Positions 21,620 to 60,957 of a stretch of 64,000 nt of DNA are shown piece by piece. The notes below the pieces were generated by a model. The model was not told the DNA's origin and did no database searches. It was given only the letters and a program-made list of their open reading frames with translations. This DNA is from Candidatus Nitrosotenuis cloacae (GTDB lineage: Archaea > Thermoproteota > Nitrososphaeria > Nitrososphaerales > Nitrosopumilaceae), in the NCBI RefSeq assembly GCF_000955905.1, contig NZ_CP011097.1, forward strand, positions 693,957-757,956. Reading direction: 5' to 3'. The translations under genes were made by a program, and so were the position numbers. Numbering within the stretch: the stretch's first letter is position 1; each line of letters opens with the position of its first letter.

Positions 21620-23449
21620 ATGTCAAAGGCAGTAGCAGATACCAGCGTGATAATTAGCGGCTATATAACAAAACAAATCGAATCAAAATCGTTACAAAAC
21701 ATTGACCTGATAATTCCAGTGGCAGCATTGGATGAGTTACAGTCCCAGGCATCACAAGGGCGAGAGCAAGGATTCGTTGGGCTGGAGGAGATAAAAAAAA
21801 TACAAAAACTATGCCAGCAAAACAATATCTCGGTACAGTTCATCGGGCAGAGGCCAAATCTTGAGGACATTAAGCTAGCAAAGCATGGGAGAATTGATGC
21901 CATCATAAAAGACGTGGCAAAGCAGAACAATGCCACATTGTATACTGCAGATTATGTCCAAGGCCTAACTGCAGAGGCAGAAGGTGTCTTGGTAGTGTAC
22001 CAAAAATCAGAAAATTTTTTACCGCAAAATCTCGAGTTTTTGAGATTCTTTGATCATACCACAATGAGTGTTCACCTAAAAGAGAATAATCCACCACTTG
22101 CAAAGCGTGGCAAGCCAGGCGCATTTGAGCTGGTAAAACTCGAAGATGCTGCACTGTCTGATGAATATTTGGAGCTAATCAGCACGCAAATTCTTGAGGC
22201 AAGCAAGGTATCAAATGCCGGAACAATAGAGATCTCCAAATCTGGCGCACTTGTCATACAGTATGCCGATTATCGCATAGCCATAACCAGGCCGCCATTT
22301 TCCGAATCCCATGAAATAACTATAGTGCACCCAATCACAAAGATGTCACTAGATCAGTATGGCCTGTCTGAGAAACTAATGACCAGACTATCCGAGCAGG
22401 CAGATGGAATAATAATATCTGGCTCTCCTGGCTCTGGCAAAAGTACGCTAGCGTCAAGCATTGCAAATTTTTATGCAGCCAAGGGAAACATTGTCAAGAC
22501 ATTCGAGTCGCCAAGGGATTTGCAAGTTGATACGGGAATCACCCAATACACAAAACTGGAGGGAAGCTTTGAAAATTCGGCAGACATTTTACTATTGGTA
22601 AGGCCAGACTATACAATATTTGATGAGGTTCGACGACAGGAAGATTTTAGGATATTTGCAGATTTGAGATTGGCAGGGGTGGGCATGGTGGGTGTGGTAC
22701 ATGCAAACATGCCACTTGATGCAGTGCAGAGATTCATTGGAAAAATAGAACTTGGTATGATACCGAGTGTGATTGATACCGTTGTATTTGTCAAAAATGG
22801 CATGGTCTCAAAAATCTATGATCTTGAGCTCAAAGTCAAGGTCCCATCTGGAATGGTAGAGCAGGACTTGGCAAGACCTGTAATTGAGATCTCGGATTTT
22901 GAATCCGGATTGTTAGAATATGAAATCTATACCTTTGGTGAGGAAAATGTAATTGTTCCAGTAAATGAGTCTGAAACCCAGTCTGGCGTTCACAAGCTAG
23001 CCGCGGAAAAAATTCGAGAAACAATGAGGCGCTTTGATCCAAACCCCAAAATCGAGATTCTATCGGACAATAGCGTCAAGGTAATGGTCAAAAAGGATTC
23101 CATACCATCATTGATAGGAAAAGGAGGCTCTACTATCAGTGAGCTTGAAAAAATCCTACACGTGCATATTGATGTAGTGGAAAAAGAATCCGAATCACAC
23201 GAGTCACATGAACGCTCTGGCGGTGTGCGCTTTGATTTTTCCGAGTCAACTAATTCTTTGATGTTTGATGTAGACAAGCGTTACAATGGAGCCCTGGCAG
23301 AAATCTACGTAAATGATAGGTATGTTGCTACGGCACGGGTTGCAAGGCACGGCAAGATCAAAATATCTAAACGATCAGATGAAGGAAAAGCGCTATCAAG
23401 ACTGGCCTCATCAAAGAGCGATATTGAGATAACGATCAAGGATTTTTAA
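21620..23449 (+). CDS. PIN-domain plus hexameric ATPase plus KH protein (PINA type)
   Basis: 609 residues. The N-terminal PIN domain starts ADTSVIISG with later acidic residues (LDEL, DAIIKD, TADYVQG). A PilT/VirB11-like ATPase follows: Walker A SGSPGSGKST near residue 273 and FDEVRRQEDF near residue 335. A KH domain with IGKGGSTISELEKIL lies near residue 500. The same architecture is the archaeal PINA, reported in Sulfolobus as a Holliday-junction-related hexameric ATPase. The stop overlaps the convergent DtxR gene by 14 bp. Confidence 0.9.
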   Translation: MSKAVADTSVIISGYITKQIESKSLQNIDLIIPVAALDELQSQASQGREQGFVGLEEIKKIQKLCQQNNISVQFIGQRPNLEDIKLAKHGRIDAIIKDVAKQNNATLYTADYVQGLTAEAEGVLVVYQKSENFLPQNLEFLRFFDHTTMSVHLKENNPPLAKRGKPGAFELVKLEDAALSDEYLELISTQILEASKVSNAGTIEISKSGALVIQYADYRIAITRPPFSESHEITIVHPITKMSLDQYGLSEKLMTRLSEQADGIIISGSPGSGKSTLASSIANFYAAKGNIVKTFESPRDLQVDTGITQYTKLEGSFENSADILLLVRPDYTIFDEVRRQEDFRIFADLRLAGVGMVGVVHANMPLDAVQRFIGKIELGMIPSVIDTVVFVKNGMVSKIYDLELKVKVPSGMVEQDLARPVIEISDFESGLLEYEIYTFGEENVIVPVNESETQSGVHKLAAEKIRETMRRFDPNPKIEILSDNSVKVMVKKDSIPSLIGKGGSTISELEKILHVHIDVVEKESESHESHERSGGVRFDFSESTNSLMFDVDKRYNGALAEIYVNDRYVATARVARHGKIKISKRSDEGKALSRLASSKSDIEITIKDF

Positions 23450-23897
23450 AACCATCAAGAAGCTTTTGGTTTGATTTCAGATATGCAATGAATTTTCGCA
23501 GCTGCTTTATTGTTTTTGGGTTTAGGTGATGCTCAATTCCCTCTGCGTCCTGGTTTGCGGTGTCATGCTCTATTCCAAGTATCTCAAAGAACTCGAGCAA
23601 AATTCCGTGCTTTTGTCGAACAGCGTCTGCAACGCTATTTCCTTTTGGAGTGAGATTGATGCCATGGTATTTTTCGTATTTTAGGTAGCCGTTTTCGTCT
23701 AGTCTTTTGAGCATCTTGGTAACACTTGGTGCACTCACATTCATGTATCTTGAAATGTCCAGCGTTGTGGCATATCCTTTGAGCTCTACTAGTTCTGATA
23801 TGACCTCCAAATAGTCTTCCATTCTGGATAGGTCTGATTTGGAGGACTTGTGTGCCGCTTTGATTGATTCTAATCGTATCTCGCTCTTTTTCTTCAA
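23436..23897 (-). CDS. DtxR/MntR-family metal-dependent regulator
   Basis: 153 residues. A winged HTH (about 25-85, YATTLDISRYMNVSAPSVTKML) is followed by the dimerisation and metal-binding part with HGILLEFFEILGI and EGIEHHL, the usual metal-ligand region. There is no SH3-like third domain, so it is the short MntR-like form. It should repress Fe or Mn uptake genes with metal bound; targets are not visible here. Confidence 0.9.
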   Translation of the reverse strand: MKKKSEIRLESIKAAHKSSKSDLSRMEDYLEVISELVELKGYATTLDISRYMNVSAPSVTKMLKRLDENGYLKYEKYHGINLTPKGNSVADAVRQKHGILLEFFEILGIEHDTANQDAEGIEHHLNPKTIKQLRKFIAYLKSNQKLLDGFKNP

Positions 23898-24530: not shown

Positions 24531-25169
24531 ATGAACAAAGTAATTCCAATCGTAATTGGTACAGCAATTGTCATGTTGATTGGAATTGCAGTATTTGTGT
24601 CTGATTTCGTCCCAGCAGAGCCCCCAATTGAACAAAAAGAACACACTTCAACATATCTCACATTAAATGGATTGATCAAAGAAAAACTTGAATCTCAACA
24701 AATCCAAATGTCGTCCCCAATTAAGCTAAGCAAGCAAGATGATCTGCAAAAGTATTGCTCATTTTTCACCGATCCTGCAAAACAGGATCTAGTGCAATAC
24801 TGCACATCCACTGAGCTCAAAGACATCAATGACACATTTCTTGGAAACATCCACATGGTTGGAAGCCCGGATGAGCCAAAAATCACACTAGCACTAGTTC
24901 AAGTAAATCAGACCATGGGGCAACTCGATTCTGTCAAAACAATATTTGATGCAACAGTAAGATCCACTGTATGTGATTGTTGGGAGCAGCAAAAGCCGGG
25001 AGGCCTAGATAATATCGGTCAGTGGGTTGATGGCCTGCAACAATTCCATCAAAGTGGTAACAAACCCCATAGCAAGTCCAATGAACTAATTTTAGATGGA
25101 AAAACCATGCAAATGGAGCTAAGCCAAAACGAGAATGGTTTTCTGTGGCAGTTTTTTATATACAACTAG
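24531..25169 (+). CDS. Signal-anchored exported protein, unknown function
   Basis: 212 residues. One N-terminal transmembrane helix (about 5-25) anchors a soluble domain outside the cell. Four cysteines are seen: YCSFF, YCTST and the pair VCDCWEQ. No known domain was recognised. The conserved-looking centre TLALVQVNQTMGQLDSV could be a strand-helix unit. It ends just before a palindromic site and a histidine kinase. Confidence 0.55.
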   Translation: MNKVIPIVIGTAIVMLIGIAVFVSDFVPAEPPIEQKEHTSTYLTLNGLIKEKLESQQIQMSSPIKLSKQDDLQKYCSFFTDPAKQDLVQYCTSTELKDINDTFLGNIHMVGSPDEPKITLALVQVNQTMGQLDSVKTIFDATVRSTVCDCWEQQKPGGLDNIGQWVDGLQQFHQSGNKPHSKSNELILDGKTMQMELSQNENGFLWQFFIYN

Positions 25170-25171
25170 TT

Positions 25172-25190
25172 TGTCTGTTCCGAACAAACA
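25172..25190. promoter_or_regulatory. 19-bp palindromic operator upstream of a histidine kinase (site A)
   Basis: TGTCTGTTCCGAACAAACA is an inverted repeat with arms of 9 bp and a one-base centre; one arm position differs. It lies 5 bases before an AT-rich TATA-like stretch (25196-25212) and 36 bases before the kinase start. A nearly identical palindrome (site B, 59797-59815) lies in the same position before the TrmB-family gene. Confidence 0.6.
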
Positions 25191-25226
25191 GTCCGTTATT
25201 ATTGATTTATTCCTAGGAACAAAGGC

Positions 25227-26129
25227 TTGGGGGAATTAGAGGCTGCATTTGATCTGCAGGACACTAGCTCGGATACCGCACCAAACAAAATCAAAAAACT
25301 AGAGCAAGAAAAACAAGTCCTACTCCAAAAAACACTGACTCAACAGCGAATGATTGTATCTTTTGAGAGAAAACTTGCAAAATTCGATGAGATCAAAGAA
25401 CAACGTGACTGGTTATTGGATGAGATGACAAAGAAAATCAGCGAGCTGAGCCATTTTCAGTCGGAATTATTCAAAGCAGAACGACTATCTGCCATAGGAG
25501 AAATGTCTGCAAGACTTGCACATGACATGCGTAATCCTTTGGCGATAATAAAAAACACCATAGAAGTAGTCAAACTAAAACATTCAAAATCCATTCCAGA
25601 TGATCTTTTACGATTATTCACCTCAATTGATAATGCCTCATCAAGACTGGTGTTCCAATTAGATGATGTTCTAAATTTTGTGAGACGCTCACCACTTAAT
25701 CGCAACGAGTTCTCAGCATCTGCAATTTTAGAGTCTGCAATCGAGGAAATCATCATTCCAGATCAAATCACAATACAAAGGCCAACAAATGATGTTTCTT
25801 TGTCATGCGATGGAGAAAAGATTCAGGCAGTGTTTACAAATCTCATAATGAATTCGATTCAAGCAATGGACAACTGTGGCAATGTGATCATTCGATTTGA
25901 AGAGTCGCAAGATGATGTTACTATTCTGGTTCAGGATTCGGGACCTGGAATAAAAAACGAGGTTATTGATAAAATCTTTGAGCCTCTCTTTACCACAAAA
26001 TCTCGCGGAACAGGCCTTGGATTGCCTGCAGTAAAAATGATAATCCAGCAACATCAGGGCACCATCACTGTATCAAATAACCCAACAACATTTACCATTG
26101 TTTTACCAAAAAAGCTAATCCTTCTCTAG
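25227..26129 (+). CDS. Cytosolic sensor histidine kinase
   Basis: 300 residues from TTG, with no transmembrane segment. A coiled coil (about 25-80) precedes HisKA with RLAHDMRNPLAIIKN near residue 97 and a HATPase domain (NLIMNSIQAM, DSGPGI, GTGLGLPAVK). It resembles the shorter kinase at 57116 in the HDMRNPL box. The upstream palindrome suggests control by a TrmB-type regulator. Input signal unknown; the coiled coil could be the sensor or a partner site. Confidence 0.92.
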   Translation: MGELEAAFDLQDTSSDTAPNKIKKLEQEKQVLLQKTLTQQRMIVSFERKLAKFDEIKEQRDWLLDEMTKKISELSHFQSELFKAERLSAIGEMSARLAHDMRNPLAIIKNTIEVVKLKHSKSIPDDLLRLFTSIDNASSRLVFQLDDVLNFVRRSPLNRNEFSASAILESAIEEIIIPDQITIQRPTNDVSLSCDGEKIQAVFTNLIMNSIQAMDNCGNVIIRFEESQDDVTILVQDSGPGIKNEVIDKIFEPLFTTKSRGTGLGLPAVKMIIQQHQGTITVSNNPTTFTIVLPKKLILL

Positions 26130-26166: not shown

Positions 26167-26919
26167 ATGTTTGAAAGCTTGTGGCTAATTCCGCTTGGAT
26201 TTGTTGCCGGCGTGATTGGCTCAATCATTGGACTTGGTGGAGGAATAGTAGTGGTTCCAGTATTGACATTTCTTGGCGTGCCACATACAATATCATCCAG
26301 TAGTAGTCTATTTGCAGCCTTTAGCAATTCAGTGGCATCTACAGTATCATATTCAAAACAAAAGCGAGTTGACTACAAGACAGGATTGCGACTCGGATTG
26401 ATGTCGATTCCTGGAACCATACTTGGCGCAGTCATTTCCGCTCAGGCAACGCCGGATCTGTTCAAGATCTTGTTTGCTGTGGTTCTGATTGCATCGTGTT
26501 ACTATCTATTCATAAAAAAGAACTTGGACACAAAGCAAGGTAATCTATCCAAAAAAATGCTAGTTGCATCATCGGTGATCAGTTTTTTTGCAGGAATCTT
26601 GTCGAGCTTTTTTGGAATTGGCGGCGGAATAATATTTGTACCATTGATGATGATCGGGCTGGGCTTGCTAGTCAAAAACGCAACTGCAACCTCGCAGCTA
26701 ATCCTAATGTTCTCATCGGCATCTGGCATGATAACTCATACCCTACTGGGACACGCGGACTTTGAGTATGCCTTGTTATTGTCAATTGGAGCATTTGCGG
26801 GAGGGTTGCTTGGCGCAAGGCTTTCACTGGAAATAAAAGAAAACCGTCTAAGACTGCTAATCGTTGCAGTGATTTTGATTGCTGCAATAAAACTAATTCT
26901 GGATTCCATGGGAATTTGA
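26167..26919 (+). CDS. TauE/SafE-family sulphite/anion exporter
   Basis: 250 residues with about eight hydrophobic segments in two halves. Each half starts with a glycine-rich motif: GSIIGLGGGIVVVPVLTFLG near residue 18 and SSFFGIGGGIIFVPLMMIGLG near residue 144, the two-fold TauE/SafE repeat. The family moves sulphite or organosulphur anions; the substrate cannot be read from sequence. Confidence 0.9.
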   Translation: MFESLWLIPLGFVAGVIGSIIGLGGGIVVVPVLTFLGVPHTISSSSSLFAAFSNSVASTVSYSKQKRVDYKTGLRLGLMSIPGTILGAVISAQATPDLFKILFAVVLIASCYYLFIKKNLDTKQGNLSKKMLVASSVISFFAGILSSFFGIGGGIIFVPLMMIGLGLLVKNATATSQLILMFSSASGMITHTLLGHADFEYALLLSIGAFAGGLLGARLSLEIKENRLRLLIVAVILIAAIKLILDSMGI

Positions 26920-56039: not shown

Positions 56040-57119
56040 GTGAAAAACGCGCTAGTCTTACTCGTTGTTTTGACTGTTGGCATGATTCCATCTTATGCCG
56101 ATGTATTCGTACCTGAGGATGAAATTCTTGGATATTTTGATTCTAATGGAGTTTACACTGTAGTCGGCGCTGTAAAAAACACTGAAAATTATCCAGTGTC
56201 ACCTGTTTTACACTTGAGCATATTTGAGAATCAAAAAGAGTCTACAATCACACAACAACTCCCAGTTGTTTTTCAGGGCAAAGACATTCCATTTAAGATC
56301 AAAATTCCGGAGATAACTGATACAAATGTAACAATAGAAAGTTTTGAGGTCACATTTGAAAAAAAATCTGATACACTACCAACACAAGTAGAAGTCGTTT
56401 ATGACCGATCCTTGAGAAAACACTCCGATGGCCATCTCTCTGGTAAAATAGTAAACAAGGGCAATCTCACCGTATATGATCTTAAGGTGTATGCTACTAT
56501 TCATGGAGAAAACAATTCCTTTATTGATGTTGCAAAAAACCCTGAAAAAATAGACAAAATAGAGCCCGGACAAACACTAGAGTTTACAATGTATCCTGAT
56601 CCAACTTTGGCTGATCTGGTTCATTATTATAGCTGCTTTGCACTCGGTGATGAAACAATCGTACCACTAAACACACTCAGAAATGGCGAACGATTTGATT
56701 TTCGATATGACTCCACAGCGTCATTTGTGGTCAAAGGCTTTGATGAAACAGGAACGAAACTCTCGATTCTTGGGATAAACTCGTTCAAGTTTCCAGCATA
56801 TGTGAGTTTTGAGATGCCTAAAACATCTGATGATGAGAAATTCGAAGTACACATCAACGATAAGCCTGTAAAGTTCATCCAAAGCATTGATGAGCAAGGA
56901 AACTGGCATGTGGCATTTGATGTGGAGGGGACAACCCAAAACAAGATCCTCATTAGTGGGTTCAAGAATCCTGCCTTCCCACAACGTATAGTTACAGATG
57001 TAATACCTCAGGCCGTGGTAGAACATGAAATTTCATATCTTTATTATGTCATTCCGGTTGTTTTTGCTGCAATAGTTGGTGTGTTTGTTTATCGCAAAAC
57101 CAGATCCACTACGGCCTAG
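56040..57119 (+). CDS. Secreted beta-rich protein with C-terminal membrane anchor
   Basis: 359 residues from GTG. A signal peptide ends near SYADVFVP. The following 300 residues are beta-rich, with a likely CARDB/FxLYD-like domain around 30-110 (VVGAVKNTENYPVS) and another from about 120 (LSGKIVNKGNLTVYDLKVYATIHG). The C-terminus has a transmembrane helix (about 333-350) and a basic tail. An envelope protein of unknown role. Confidence 0.65.
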   Translation: MKNALVLLVVLTVGMIPSYADVFVPEDEILGYFDSNGVYTVVGAVKNTENYPVSPVLHLSIFENQKESTITQQLPVVFQGKDIPFKIKIPEITDTNVTIESFEVTFEKKSDTLPTQVEVVYDRSLRKHSDGHLSGKIVNKGNLTVYDLKVYATIHGENNSFIDVAKNPEKIDKIEPGQTLEFTMYPDPTLADLVHYYSCFALGDETIVPLNTLRNGERFDFRYDSTASFVVKGFDETGTKLSILGINSFKFPAYVSFEMPKTSDDEKFEVHINDKPVKFIQSIDEQGNWHVAFDVEGTTQNKILISGFKNPAFPQRIVTDVIPQAVVEHEISYLYYVIPVVFAAIVGVFVYRKTRSTTA

Positions 57120-57790
57120 TTCTTTGGTAGTTTTATGATAAATGTCGTCGGATTATTTTTGGCAGATATTGTTCCTCGGTGTCTGTCTATGATGTTTTTG
57201 CAGCTTGCCAAGCCAAGTCCAGTTCCGGTTGTTTTGGTAGTAAATAACGGCTCAAAAACTTTTTCAATGTTTTCTTGATTTATTCCAGGCCCCGAATCCT
57301 CAATCTCAATGGTTATGATGTCTTTGCTCTCAGAAGAATCAATTGAAATTGTACCTGATTTGTTCATTGCCTCAATTGCGTTTGTAATTAAATTGACAAA
57401 CACGATTTCCATCTTGTCTATGTCACATGTTATCATGGGATTAGTCTTTGGTAAATTGATTTCAACGTCATCGCCAATCTGAGTTCTATCTATTACTTTT
57501 TTTAATATGTCATGAAGAGAATGAGTTTGAAGTTTTAGTGGTGGCAGCTTTACATAATTGAGAACGTCCTCTATTTGGTGATACATTTTTCTTGCCTCAT
57601 CTTCAATTAGTTCAAGCTGGTCTAGTGATTTTTTATCCAGCTTATTTTTTGCATTTTTTCTGACCATGGTTGCGTAATTAATGATGACTGTTAACGGATT
57701 TCTCATATCATGTGTGATTCTTGATGTCAACTCACCAATGTGAACAAGCTTGTCCATTTTTTGTCGTACGTCTTGTTCTTCAATTGTCAT
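57116..57790 (-). CDS. Minimal cytosolic histidine kinase
   Basis: 224 residues: HisKA with RITHDMRNPLTVIINY near residue 20 and HATPase with NLITNAIEAM, DSGPGI and GTGLGLASCK. No sensor domain is present, so it needs a partner for input. It shares the HDMRNPL box with the kinase at 25227. It overlaps the convergent secreted-protein gene by four bases. Confidence 0.9.
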   Translation of the reverse strand: MTIEEQDVRQKMDKLVHIGELTSRITHDMRNPLTVIINYATMVRKNAKNKLDKKSLDQLELIEDEARKMYHQIEDVLNYVKLPPLKLQTHSLHDILKKVIDRTQIGDDVEINLPKTNPMITCDIDKMEIVFVNLITNAIEAMNKSGTISIDSSESKDIITIEIEDSGPGINQENIEKVFEPLFTTKTTGTGLGLASCKNIIDRHRGTISAKNNPTTFIIKLPKN

Positions 57791-58335: not shown

Positions 58336-59235
58336 TTATTTATCTAGCAGACCTTTTAGTCCGACACATCGGTTTCTTATTGTGACTTCGGTAACACCCG
58401 CTGCAACAGAGATGTCTTTTTGCGATCTAATCTCACCATTGGATACACAAGCCAAATAGAGTGCGGCAGCTGCCAAGCCCATCGGATCTTTTCCTGCAAC
58501 CATTCCGATTATCTTTGCCTTGTTTAGTATCTCGGCTGCCTTTCGCTTGGTCTTCTCAGAGAGATTTGCAACGCTTGCAATTCTTGCAATTCCTTTGGTT
58601 GGATCGGCTACTGGCATCTTTAGGTCCAGTTCTTTGTATATGAGCCTGTAGCATCGAGCTACGTCTTTTCGTCGTATGTTGATGCTTTCTGCCACATCAT
58701 CCAATGTCCTTGGCGTTTCGGTGTTTCTACATGCCGCATAAAGGCAGGCGGCAATCAATCCATGAATGGATCTTCCCCTGACTAGCTTTTTTTCCATTGC
58801 CTTTCGGTAAATGTAGGCTGCCTTTTCTATGACTGCATCCGCCAAACCCATCTTGTCCTTCATTTTGCCAAGCTCGTTTAGTGCCTGCCTTAGGTTTCTA
58901 TCAGCAGATGTATGCGCTTGTGTTCTACTATCCCAAGTTCTAAGGCGCTCAATGGAGTTTTTCATTGATGCTGAAAGTGGTTTTCCCGTTGCATCCTTGT
59001 CAGCACTTCCTATTACTGTGGATAGTCCCATATCGTGCATTGTTAATGATGTTGCTGCACCGACTCGACTCTTGTCTGATTCATCATTAGAAAATGATCT
59101 CCATTCTGGACCTGACTCTTCTAGTTTTTCTGCGGCAACATAGCCACAATTTCTGCAAAAGATTTCACCAGTTACGGCATCTGCCTGTATGGTGTTTTTT
59201 GCGCAAGAAGGACATTTTCTTTGTGATGAGGCCAT
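58336..59235 (-). CDS. tfb: Transcription initiation factor IIB
   Basis: 299 residues. The zinc ribbon is CPSCAKNTI...CRNCG near the start, the B-finger linker follows (SGPEWRSFSNDES), and two cyclin repeats (about 110-200 and 205-299). It recruits RNA polymerase to TATA-bound TBP. Thaumarchaeal genomes usually carry several TFBs, so this may be one of a set. Confidence 0.96.
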   Translation of the reverse strand: MASSQRKCPSCAKNTIQADAVTGEIFCRNCGYVAAEKLEESGPEWRSFSNDESDKSRVGAATSLTMHDMGLSTVIGSADKDATGKPLSASMKNSIERLRTWDSRTQAHTSADRNLRQALNELGKMKDKMGLADAVIEKAAYIYRKAMEKKLVRGRSIHGLIAACLYAACRNTETPRTLDDVAESINIRRKDVARCYRLIYKELDLKMPVADPTKGIARIASVANLSEKTKRKAAEILNKAKIIGMVAGKDPMGLAAAALYLACVSNGEIRSQKDISVAAGVTEVTIRNRCVGLKGLLDK

Positions 59236-59717: not shown

Positions 59718-59796
59718 TGTTTTGCCTCAATTACACGCAATTATATAATTTTCAAAATTAACCAACCCAAAAAATAACCGTACATATCTGACTGTC

Positions 59797-59815
59797 TGTC
59801 TGTTTTGAACAGACA
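59797..59815. promoter_or_regulatory. 19-bp palindromic operator upstream of trmB-like gene (site B)
   Basis: TGTCTGTTTTGAACAGACA, with arms differing only at the innermost pair, fits the same consensus as site A at 25172-25190. It ends 7 bases before a TATA-like run (59821-59833). Location before the regulator's own gene suggests autoregulation. Confidence 0.6.
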
Positions 59816-59857
59816 AGATCTATTATTTTATTCGTGAATCGGTATATGGGGAATAAA

Positions 59858-60688
59858 ATGAACCACGAAGAAATCATCAAACATCTGGGTCTTTTTGGCC
59901 TGGAAGAAATCGATTCCAAAGTATACATGGGATTGCTCCAAACTGGACCAGTGTCCGTTGGAAGTCTGTCTGTCAAGTTGGACATAGATAGAGGCAAGAC
60001 TTACCGCGCTCTGAACCGACTAAGAAACATGGGAATTGTTAGTACAACTTTTTCAAACCCGACGCTTTGCTCTGCAATTCCACCAGTCGATGCACTAAAT
60101 GTAATCCTGGACAGAAAACAGGATGAAATGATAACCATGAAGAACCTGTCACAAAAAATAGTTGAGGACATTGATGTTATAGTCAAGCAAACTGACATGC
60201 AGGAAATATCCTCATTTGTGATAATCCAAGGCAGATCCAATATCTATTCCAGAATTGGCAAATTACTACAAAAGGCAACAGGTGTGGTGTATTTGGTTGG
60301 TCCACCTGAGGATTTTATGCGCATGTACCATACTACGATTCCTGAAAAAATCCAAATGATCAAAGAAAATGGCACCGAGGTAAGAATACTGACTGAGATC
60401 TCAAATGAGAAAGAATTGGTGTTCATCAACAGATTGGAGCCAAGTGAGGTACGTTTGGGCAAGCTACCATCAAAGAGCAGGATGATTGTGGAGGAGAATA
60501 GGCAACTCATCATGTCTGGCGCATTAAACACATCAATGGACCTAAACGATGAGAATGATTCTGTGATGCACACAAACTCGGCCGAAATGGTAAGTAACAT
60601 GTTCAGTCTTTGTACATTGTTGTGGGCAAAATCCAAACCAACAGCGGTTCTTGTTGCGCCAAAGGCAAAGAAGGTCAGATCACAATGA
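59858..60688 (+). CDS. TrmB-family transcriptional regulator
   Basis: 276 residues from ATG 59858; other in-frame starts are GTG 59834 and ATG 59846. A winged HTH (about 15-70: SVKLDIDRGKTYRALNRLRNMGI) is followed by a coiled coil and a sensor domain of the TrmB type (PLD-like, IQGRSNIYSRIGKLL). TrmB proteins commonly answer to sugars or metabolites, repressing or activating. The operator upstream suggests self-control. The small kinase-like gene starts in its stop codon (ATGA). Confidence 0.88.
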   Translation: MNHEEIIKHLGLFGLEEIDSKVYMGLLQTGPVSVGSLSVKLDIDRGKTYRALNRLRNMGIVSTTFSNPTLCSAIPPVDALNVILDRKQDEMITMKNLSQKIVEDIDVIVKQTDMQEISSFVIIQGRSNIYSRIGKLLQKATGVVYLVGPPEDFMRMYHTTIPEKIQMIKENGTEVRILTEISNEKELVFINRLEPSEVRLGKLPSKSRMIVEENRQLIMSGALNTSMDLNDENDSVMHTNSAEMVSNMFSLCTLLWAKSKPTAVLVAPKAKKVRSQ

Positions 60689-60957
60689 TGGGATACAAAC
60701 CAGTACACTGTGAATCACTAAAACAGAAAAATTCTGAGACAAACTCTGCTAGTAAGGATTTTCGTCAAAAAAGAAAGGAAGACTTGGTAAATGAGTTGGT
60801 GGACCCAATTTGTATAATAACAAATGCAAACGAGATGTTGTATTTGCGCCTAGGAAAATTTGTAGATTCGGAAACAAGAGACTACTTTGAGATGATAACT
60901 CGTGCCATCACAAAGACAAAAACACTTGTTGAGGAACTACGCCAAGAGACTAGCTGA
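60685..60957 (+). CDS. HisKA-like dimerisation protein without ATPase domain
   Basis: 90 residues from ATG 60685, overlapping the TrmB stop by four bases. The last 65 residues (RQKRKEDLVNELVDPICII, then TRAITKTKTLVEEL) look like a kinase dimerisation hairpin with the DPICII element of HisKA, but the position of the phosphorylated His holds other residues (NELVDP), and no ATPase domain follows. It may pair with a true kinase or with TrmB. Confidence 0.6.
   Translation: MMGYKPVHCESLKQKNSETNSASKDFRQKRKEDLVNELVDPICIITNANEMLYLRLGKFVDSETRDYFEMITRAITKTKTLVEELRQETS

Follow-up and report, generated by a model that had tools for sequence, protein, structure and literature searches.

A conserved palindrome, probably an operator of TrmB-type regulators, precedes regulator, kinase, copper-protein and chemotaxis genes in Nitrosotenuis

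A soluble histidine kinase gene and the gene of a TrmB-family regulator in Candidatus Nitrosotenuis cloacae SAT1 are each preceded by nearly the same 19-bp palindrome, which raises the question of whether one regulator reads both promoters and, if so, how many others it reads. An earlier note, made from the letters alone, had proposed an operator shared by the two genes and a regulon limited to these two loci. Here, the window is the whole 64-kb stretch of DNA analysed (positions 693957-757956 of the closed genome of 1,620,156 bases, or 1.62 Mb). Its GC content is 40.9%; the SAT1 paper gives 41.0% GC and five flaB copies (PMC4814877).

Palindromic sites and their conservation

Site A (25172-25190, plus strand) is a predicted 19-bp palindromic operator upstream of the kinase gene, and site B (59797-59815, plus strand) is a predicted and perfect one upstream of trmB, where it sits between divergent genes. 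The coordinates and letters that the earlier note gave for both sites are exact in the sequence. It had also ascribed one arm mismatch to each; this is right for site A, which carries a G to A change at position 16, and wrong for site B, whose arms are a perfect 8+8 and whose departure from the proposed consensus lies in the 3-nt spacer. Directly 5' of the palindromes are GTT (25169-25171) at site A and GTC (59794-59796) at site B. Both were said to stand just before a TATA-like stretch and 30 to 45 bases before the gene start, and they do. A gap of 5 nt leads to TTATTATT at site A (25196-25203, plus strand), which falls in the A/T-only block of the combined alignment, and a gap of 5 nt leads to the conserved TATTATTTTATT at site B (59821-59832, plus strand). 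From the end of the palindrome it is 36 nt to the TTG of the kinase gene at 25227 and 42 nt to the ATG of trmB at 59858.

Just two short sites in 64 kb could be thought a chance likeness of two promoters, the more so as a genome scan at 3 mismatches shows little excess (16 matches versus 11 in the control). We draw no target list from that scan because of its weak excess, and we take a fourth genome match at 1396167, with 3 mismatches and inside a CBS-protein gene, to be a chance one. At closer range, coincidence becomes next to incredible. Sites A and B are the sole window matches at up to 3 mismatches, where shuffled sequences average 0.06 matches and none of 100 gave two. Across the 72 ORFs of the window, a match better than 4 mismatches occurs only in the promoters holding A and B (three ORFs are counted for the two sites, since the genes flanking site B diverge). 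Genome-wide, three sites are within one mismatch of TGTCTGTTNNNAACAGACA, against 0.046 expected under a dinucleotide model and none in a backward-read control. Chance is finally refuted by conservation, as the orthologous promoters keep the site in about a dozen genomes.

This conservation was read in gene orientation upstream of orthologues from same-genus genomes. The site is kept at all 13 kinase orthologues, with 0 to 3 mismatches, and at 12/12 trmB loci, comprising 11/11 full-length loci (0 to 3 mismatches) and a contig-truncated copy in genome G010. An operator common to the trmB and soluble-kinase promoters is thus borne out in both sets of orthologues, which is the check that the earlier note had named. 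A third site, TGTCTGTTATGAACAGACA, lies outside the window at genome positions 983259-983277. It is perfect and equals A and B in quality, and from its end it is 33 nt to the likely TTG start codon of a gene for a secreted cupredoxin-like protein. There, 11 of 12 orthologues keep the site with 0 to 2 mismatches (G010 included), the twelfth has it degraded in place with 4, and a cupredoxin gene in another genus (G028) has a 3-mismatch version. Over these three unlinked promoters, the palindrome arms are 91-95% conserved versus 62-63% for the 60 nt of upstream flank, and GT precedes the palindrome in nearly every orthologous promoter. In the alignment, an A/T-only block follows about 5-6 nt after the palindrome but is poor in the cupredoxin set, and in SAT1 the start codons of all three genes come 33-42 nt past the palindrome. 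By analogy with described promoters, this is the geometry expected where an archaeal activator binds upstream of BRE/TATA.

An inverted repeat with 8 perfect base pairs, preceded at site A by a stop codon at 25169, might also act as an RNA hairpin, for example as a terminator or leader element. We consider this very improbable and rejected it, as the trmB promoters break two of the eight pairs, in 5/7 and 6/7 distinct sequences, without compensation. Moreover, the TATA-like block follows the site rather than preceding it, and the genes on the two sides of site B point away from each other.

The regulator, its paralogues, and the genes behind the sites

The protein encoded at 59858-60688 (plus strand), here called P1, belongs to the TrmB family and has both the winged helix-turn-helix (HTH) and the PLD-like effector domain. 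Its N-terminal TrmB winged HTH (PF01978) was matched with an E value of 8e-14 and 51.6 bits over a cut-off of 25.6, and profile matches were to TrmBL2 and TrmB chains. There was no Pfam match to the C-terminal half. The predicted model (pLDDT 83) shows a linker helix and a PLD-like effector domain there, and the best Foldseek matches were again TrmBL2 and TrmB, along with 2f5t, the sugar-binding domain of TrmB, and proteins of the PLD fold. TM-scores were about 0.4 because domain orientation differs.

Three paralogues of P1 are present in the genome, namely P2, P3, and P4. P2 adjoins the archaellins, and P3 adjoins a prepilin-peptidase-type gene and a kinase. The recognition helix is nearly the same in P1, P2, and P3 (IDRGKTYRALNRL, IDRGKAYRSLNKL, and IERGKAYRSLEKL). 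An apparent site at P4 (TGTCTGTTCAAAAAAAACA) was discarded, as it overlaps the ATG and encodes a conserved MSVQKKQ start. Between an archaellin gene and P2 there are overlapping half-sites, TGTTTGTTTGAATGAAACAGACA (L096:2321-2343), which are also found in genome G013.

The soluble kinase gene behind site A (25227-26129, plus strand, TTG start) encodes HisKA and HATPase_c domains as identified by domain search, and no transmembrane or PAS domain was found. A TauE/SafE-type membrane transporter gene (26167-26919, plus strand) adjoins it in 13/13 loci and is presumed to be on the same transcript. Just upstream of the kinase region, on the minus strand, is a DtxR-type iron-dependent-repressor gene (23436-23897).

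Behind site B, trmB has a downstream companion in 11/11 loci, a gene for a small protein of 90 aa (60685-60957, plus strand) that overlaps the trmB stop codon. A helical hairpin is predicted for it, and its top Foldseek matches were mostly DHp domains of kinases at a non-significant E of about 0.3, with an hhalign probability against DHp domains of 3.7%. The phospho-histidine is absent, and the aligned position holds N or K in 11/11. We do not class this protein as a DHp-family member; it is possible that it pairs with the DHp domain of the kinase as a partner or decoy. Two other genes near trmB deserve mention. A very short second histidine kinase (57116-57790, 224 aa) lacks the operator in its promoter; several genomes have a counterpart of it, likewise near trmB. 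A TFB (TFIIB-type) gene (58336-59235) is also close by and is kept there in G013 and in the trmB-less G015.

The secreted protein behind the third site carries MQASYVILGLALFGVLQYVHA as its signal peptide, as well as an amicyanin/plastocyanin-like domain. NCBIfam scores fell below cut-off and Pfam gave no match, so "cupredoxin" is a family-level reading.

A wider promoter class and a proposed mechanism

We scanned 17 same-genus genomes with the degenerate pattern TGTYTGTTNNNAACARACA at one mismatch and then read the matches site by site. Variant sites of the form TGTYTG-N7-CARACA emerged, many of them intergenic and 35-41 nt before gene starts, with a minority elsewhere. The genes behind them encode CheY-like regulators, soluble kinases, CBS proteins, an MCP-like protein, and a small protein of unknown family. 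In SAT1 itself, several kinase genes, one CBS gene, and one MCP-like gene are preceded at 37-42 nt by versions with 2 to 4 mismatches. Non-core kinase promoters carry a site (2 mismatches or fewer) in 9/47 cases versus 2/113 for neighbouring genes (Fisher P of 3e-4), a comparison that covers the stretches around sites, kinases, and TrmB genes and in which orthologues are not independent.

The cheW-led chemotaxis operon belongs here as well. TGTCTG-N7-CAAACA or a variant of it, followed by an A/T stretch, was found in 10/10 readable orthologues, two of which depart by 3-4 mismatches from the strict consensus; nine come from the cheW-promoter comparison and one (G004) from the site-by-site reading, and the match in G006 is to a second cheW paralogue. 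In SAT1, the site (L225) is at 1487541-1487559 and is followed by the stretch ATTATTATTT. It lies about 90-96 nt before the cheW start, a distance that suggests a longer leader. A regulon of two loci, as first proposed, is therefore too small, given a third, perfect site before the cupredoxin gene and variants that precede the chemotaxis operon as well as many two-component genes. With such variants before chemotaxis and signalling genes, the pair formed by sites A and B appears to be part of a signalling and motility network. A FlaF-like gene also has a degenerate site 30-36 nt before its start (L242, SAT1 865306-865324; L243; L244). Because this site is present in just three of six genomes (SAT1, G013, and G005) and absent in G008, G009, and G011, we do not count the gene as a target.

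The genes also tend to be lost together. The TrmB paralogues, kinase, cupredoxin, and CheW are all missing from G012 (70% complete), G014, and G015, none of which has an archaellin over the cut-off; the SAT1 genome has five archaellin matches. In G015, the usual neighbours of trmB and the small DHp-like gene stand without the pair between them, and a relic operator with one mismatch stays (L018:1501-1519). At a second place in this genome (L159:1501-1519), two CheY-like genes appear to have been lost likewise beside a retained site. These losses may represent one event in one clade.

Taken together, the data lead us to favour, with some reserve, a model in which the 19-bp palindrome is the operator of a TrmB dimer, with P1 the most likely binder and an activator of trmB, kinase-tauE, and cupredoxin, and with paralogues probably reading variants. 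The operator core would be TGTYTG-N7-CARACA, extended in the trmB, kinase, and cupredoxin promoters to GTYTGTCTRTT-N3-AACARACA. A winged-helix dimer of the TrmB family would sit on the palindrome directly upstream of the BRE/TATA region, and once bound, P1 would most likely activate by helping TBP/TFB at weak TATA boxes. P1 would thereby control three units, namely its own gene together with the downstream small DHp-like gene, the kinase-tauE pair, and the secreted cupredoxin gene; we count the position of site B within the promoter of the TrmB gene itself in favour of this model. Its paralogues would probably read close variants before the cheW-led operon and the CheY, kinase, CBS, and MCP-like genes. 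Thus, a regulator gene, a sensor kinase, a copper protein, and a chemotaxis operon are probably switched on together by TrmB-type regulators. The poor TATA-like block of the cupredoxin promoters in the combined alignment counts against this model.

That P1 is the binder, and that it activates rather than represses, seems most likely from position and family precedent, and each point has a competitor. Alternatively, the operator is real and its physiological binders may be P2, P3, or several paralogues, with P1 as a target. P1 is not assignable by sequence alone, because the recognition helices of P2 and P3 are nearly the same; P1 to P3 all co-occur with sites, and related sites are found near P2 and at the P3-linked kinase. 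However, a distal half of the TGTC type occurs only in the P1/kinase/cupredoxin set and in cheW. The promoter-distal half reads TGTC in 36/37 of the core set and TGTTTG in 24/24 of the chemosensory set, which suggests separate readers, although the chemosensory set was hand-picked from matches to a pattern allowing both letters, so that the split is informative and not an independent test. In addition, P3 has no good site upstream, and the only genus in which P1-type sites were found is the one with P1. We consider binding by the paralogues in place of P1 unlikely.

Repression by P1 is similarly a minority prospect. Autoregulation is often negative, and no more than 5-6 nt separate the palindrome from the A/T block, so the dimer could touch the BRE and, by binding beside the TATA box, block TBP/TFB. 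Pyrococcus TrmB represses malE through a palindrome located at the BRE/TATA box (PMC4158304). On the other hand, TrmBL1, Tgr, and VNG1451C repress from downstream of TATA and activate from upstream of it (PMC4158304), and a weak TATA-like block, as in the cupredoxin promoters, is what would be expected of an activated promoter.

Beyond activation by P1 at its own promoters, the TrmB paralogues of archaellated Nitrosotenuis-type ammonia oxidisers, with their diverging half-site specificities (TGTCTG and TGTTTG), could form a network that governs chemotaxis along with soluble kinases and response regulators, and to which P1 links an extracellular copper protein and a small kinase-mimicking partner. 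We put this broader view forward tentatively, as somewhat short of an even prospect.

Meaning and comparison with known TrmB systems

Ammonia-oxidising archaea are abundant, and a 2014 review of the TrmB family noted that the thaumarchaeal TrmB proteins were all still uncharacterised (PMC4158304). No description of this motif or of a TrmB target in ammonia-oxidising archaea was found in the literature searched, subscription papers and preprints being outside its scope. If true, our model would give one thaumarchaeal TrmB a role as regulator, with a DNA motif and a list of targets to go with it, would take the family out of sugar metabolism into signalling and motility, and would offer a proposal for how these archaea turn chemotaxis on. 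SAT1 has flagellar and chemotaxis genes, yet no flagella were seen in culture (PMC4814877), and a conditional activator could account for this.

The regulator family and the promoter logic are known; what is new is the motif, together with its proposed targets and the tie to signalling. In this family, a site placed upstream of BRE/TATA signifies activation, a rule that holds for TrmBL1, Tgr, and VNG1451C (PMC4158304). The closest parallels are TrmBL1 of Pyrococcus and Tgr of Thermococcus, which share with the system described here a TrmB-type winged HTH with an effector domain, a palindromic operator, and several unlinked targets (PMC4158304). They activate from a site upstream of BRE/TATA, the same position as here, and autoregulation has been proposed for Tgr as we propose it for P1 (PMC4158304). 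They differ in motif, the Thermococcales glycolytic motif (TGM) being TATCAC-N5-GTGATA rather than TGTYTG-N7-CARACA, and in their targets, which serve sugar uptake, glycolysis, and gluconeogenesis, as opposed to kinases, chemotaxis, and a cupredoxin (PMC4158304). Halobacterium TrmB (VNG1451C) is a dual regulator that follows the same position rule, but it has the motif TACT-N7-8-GAGTA and a metabolic regulon responding to glucose and glycerol (PMC4158304). The operator proposed here equals none of TGM, TACT-N3-AGTA, and TACT-N7-8-GAGTA (motifs from PMC4158304).

The chromatin protein TrmBL2 (PDB 5bpd and 5box) is the best structural and profile match of P1 in the PDB. It binds widely to coding and intergenic DNA, whereas the palindrome is a specific candidate operator kept at few promoters. 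Finally, EarA of Methanococcus and Pyrococcus is an archaeal activator needed for transcription of archaellum genes from BRE-weak promoters (PMC5512572); its likeness to a TrmB network would be one of function only, and would depend on the network view being right.
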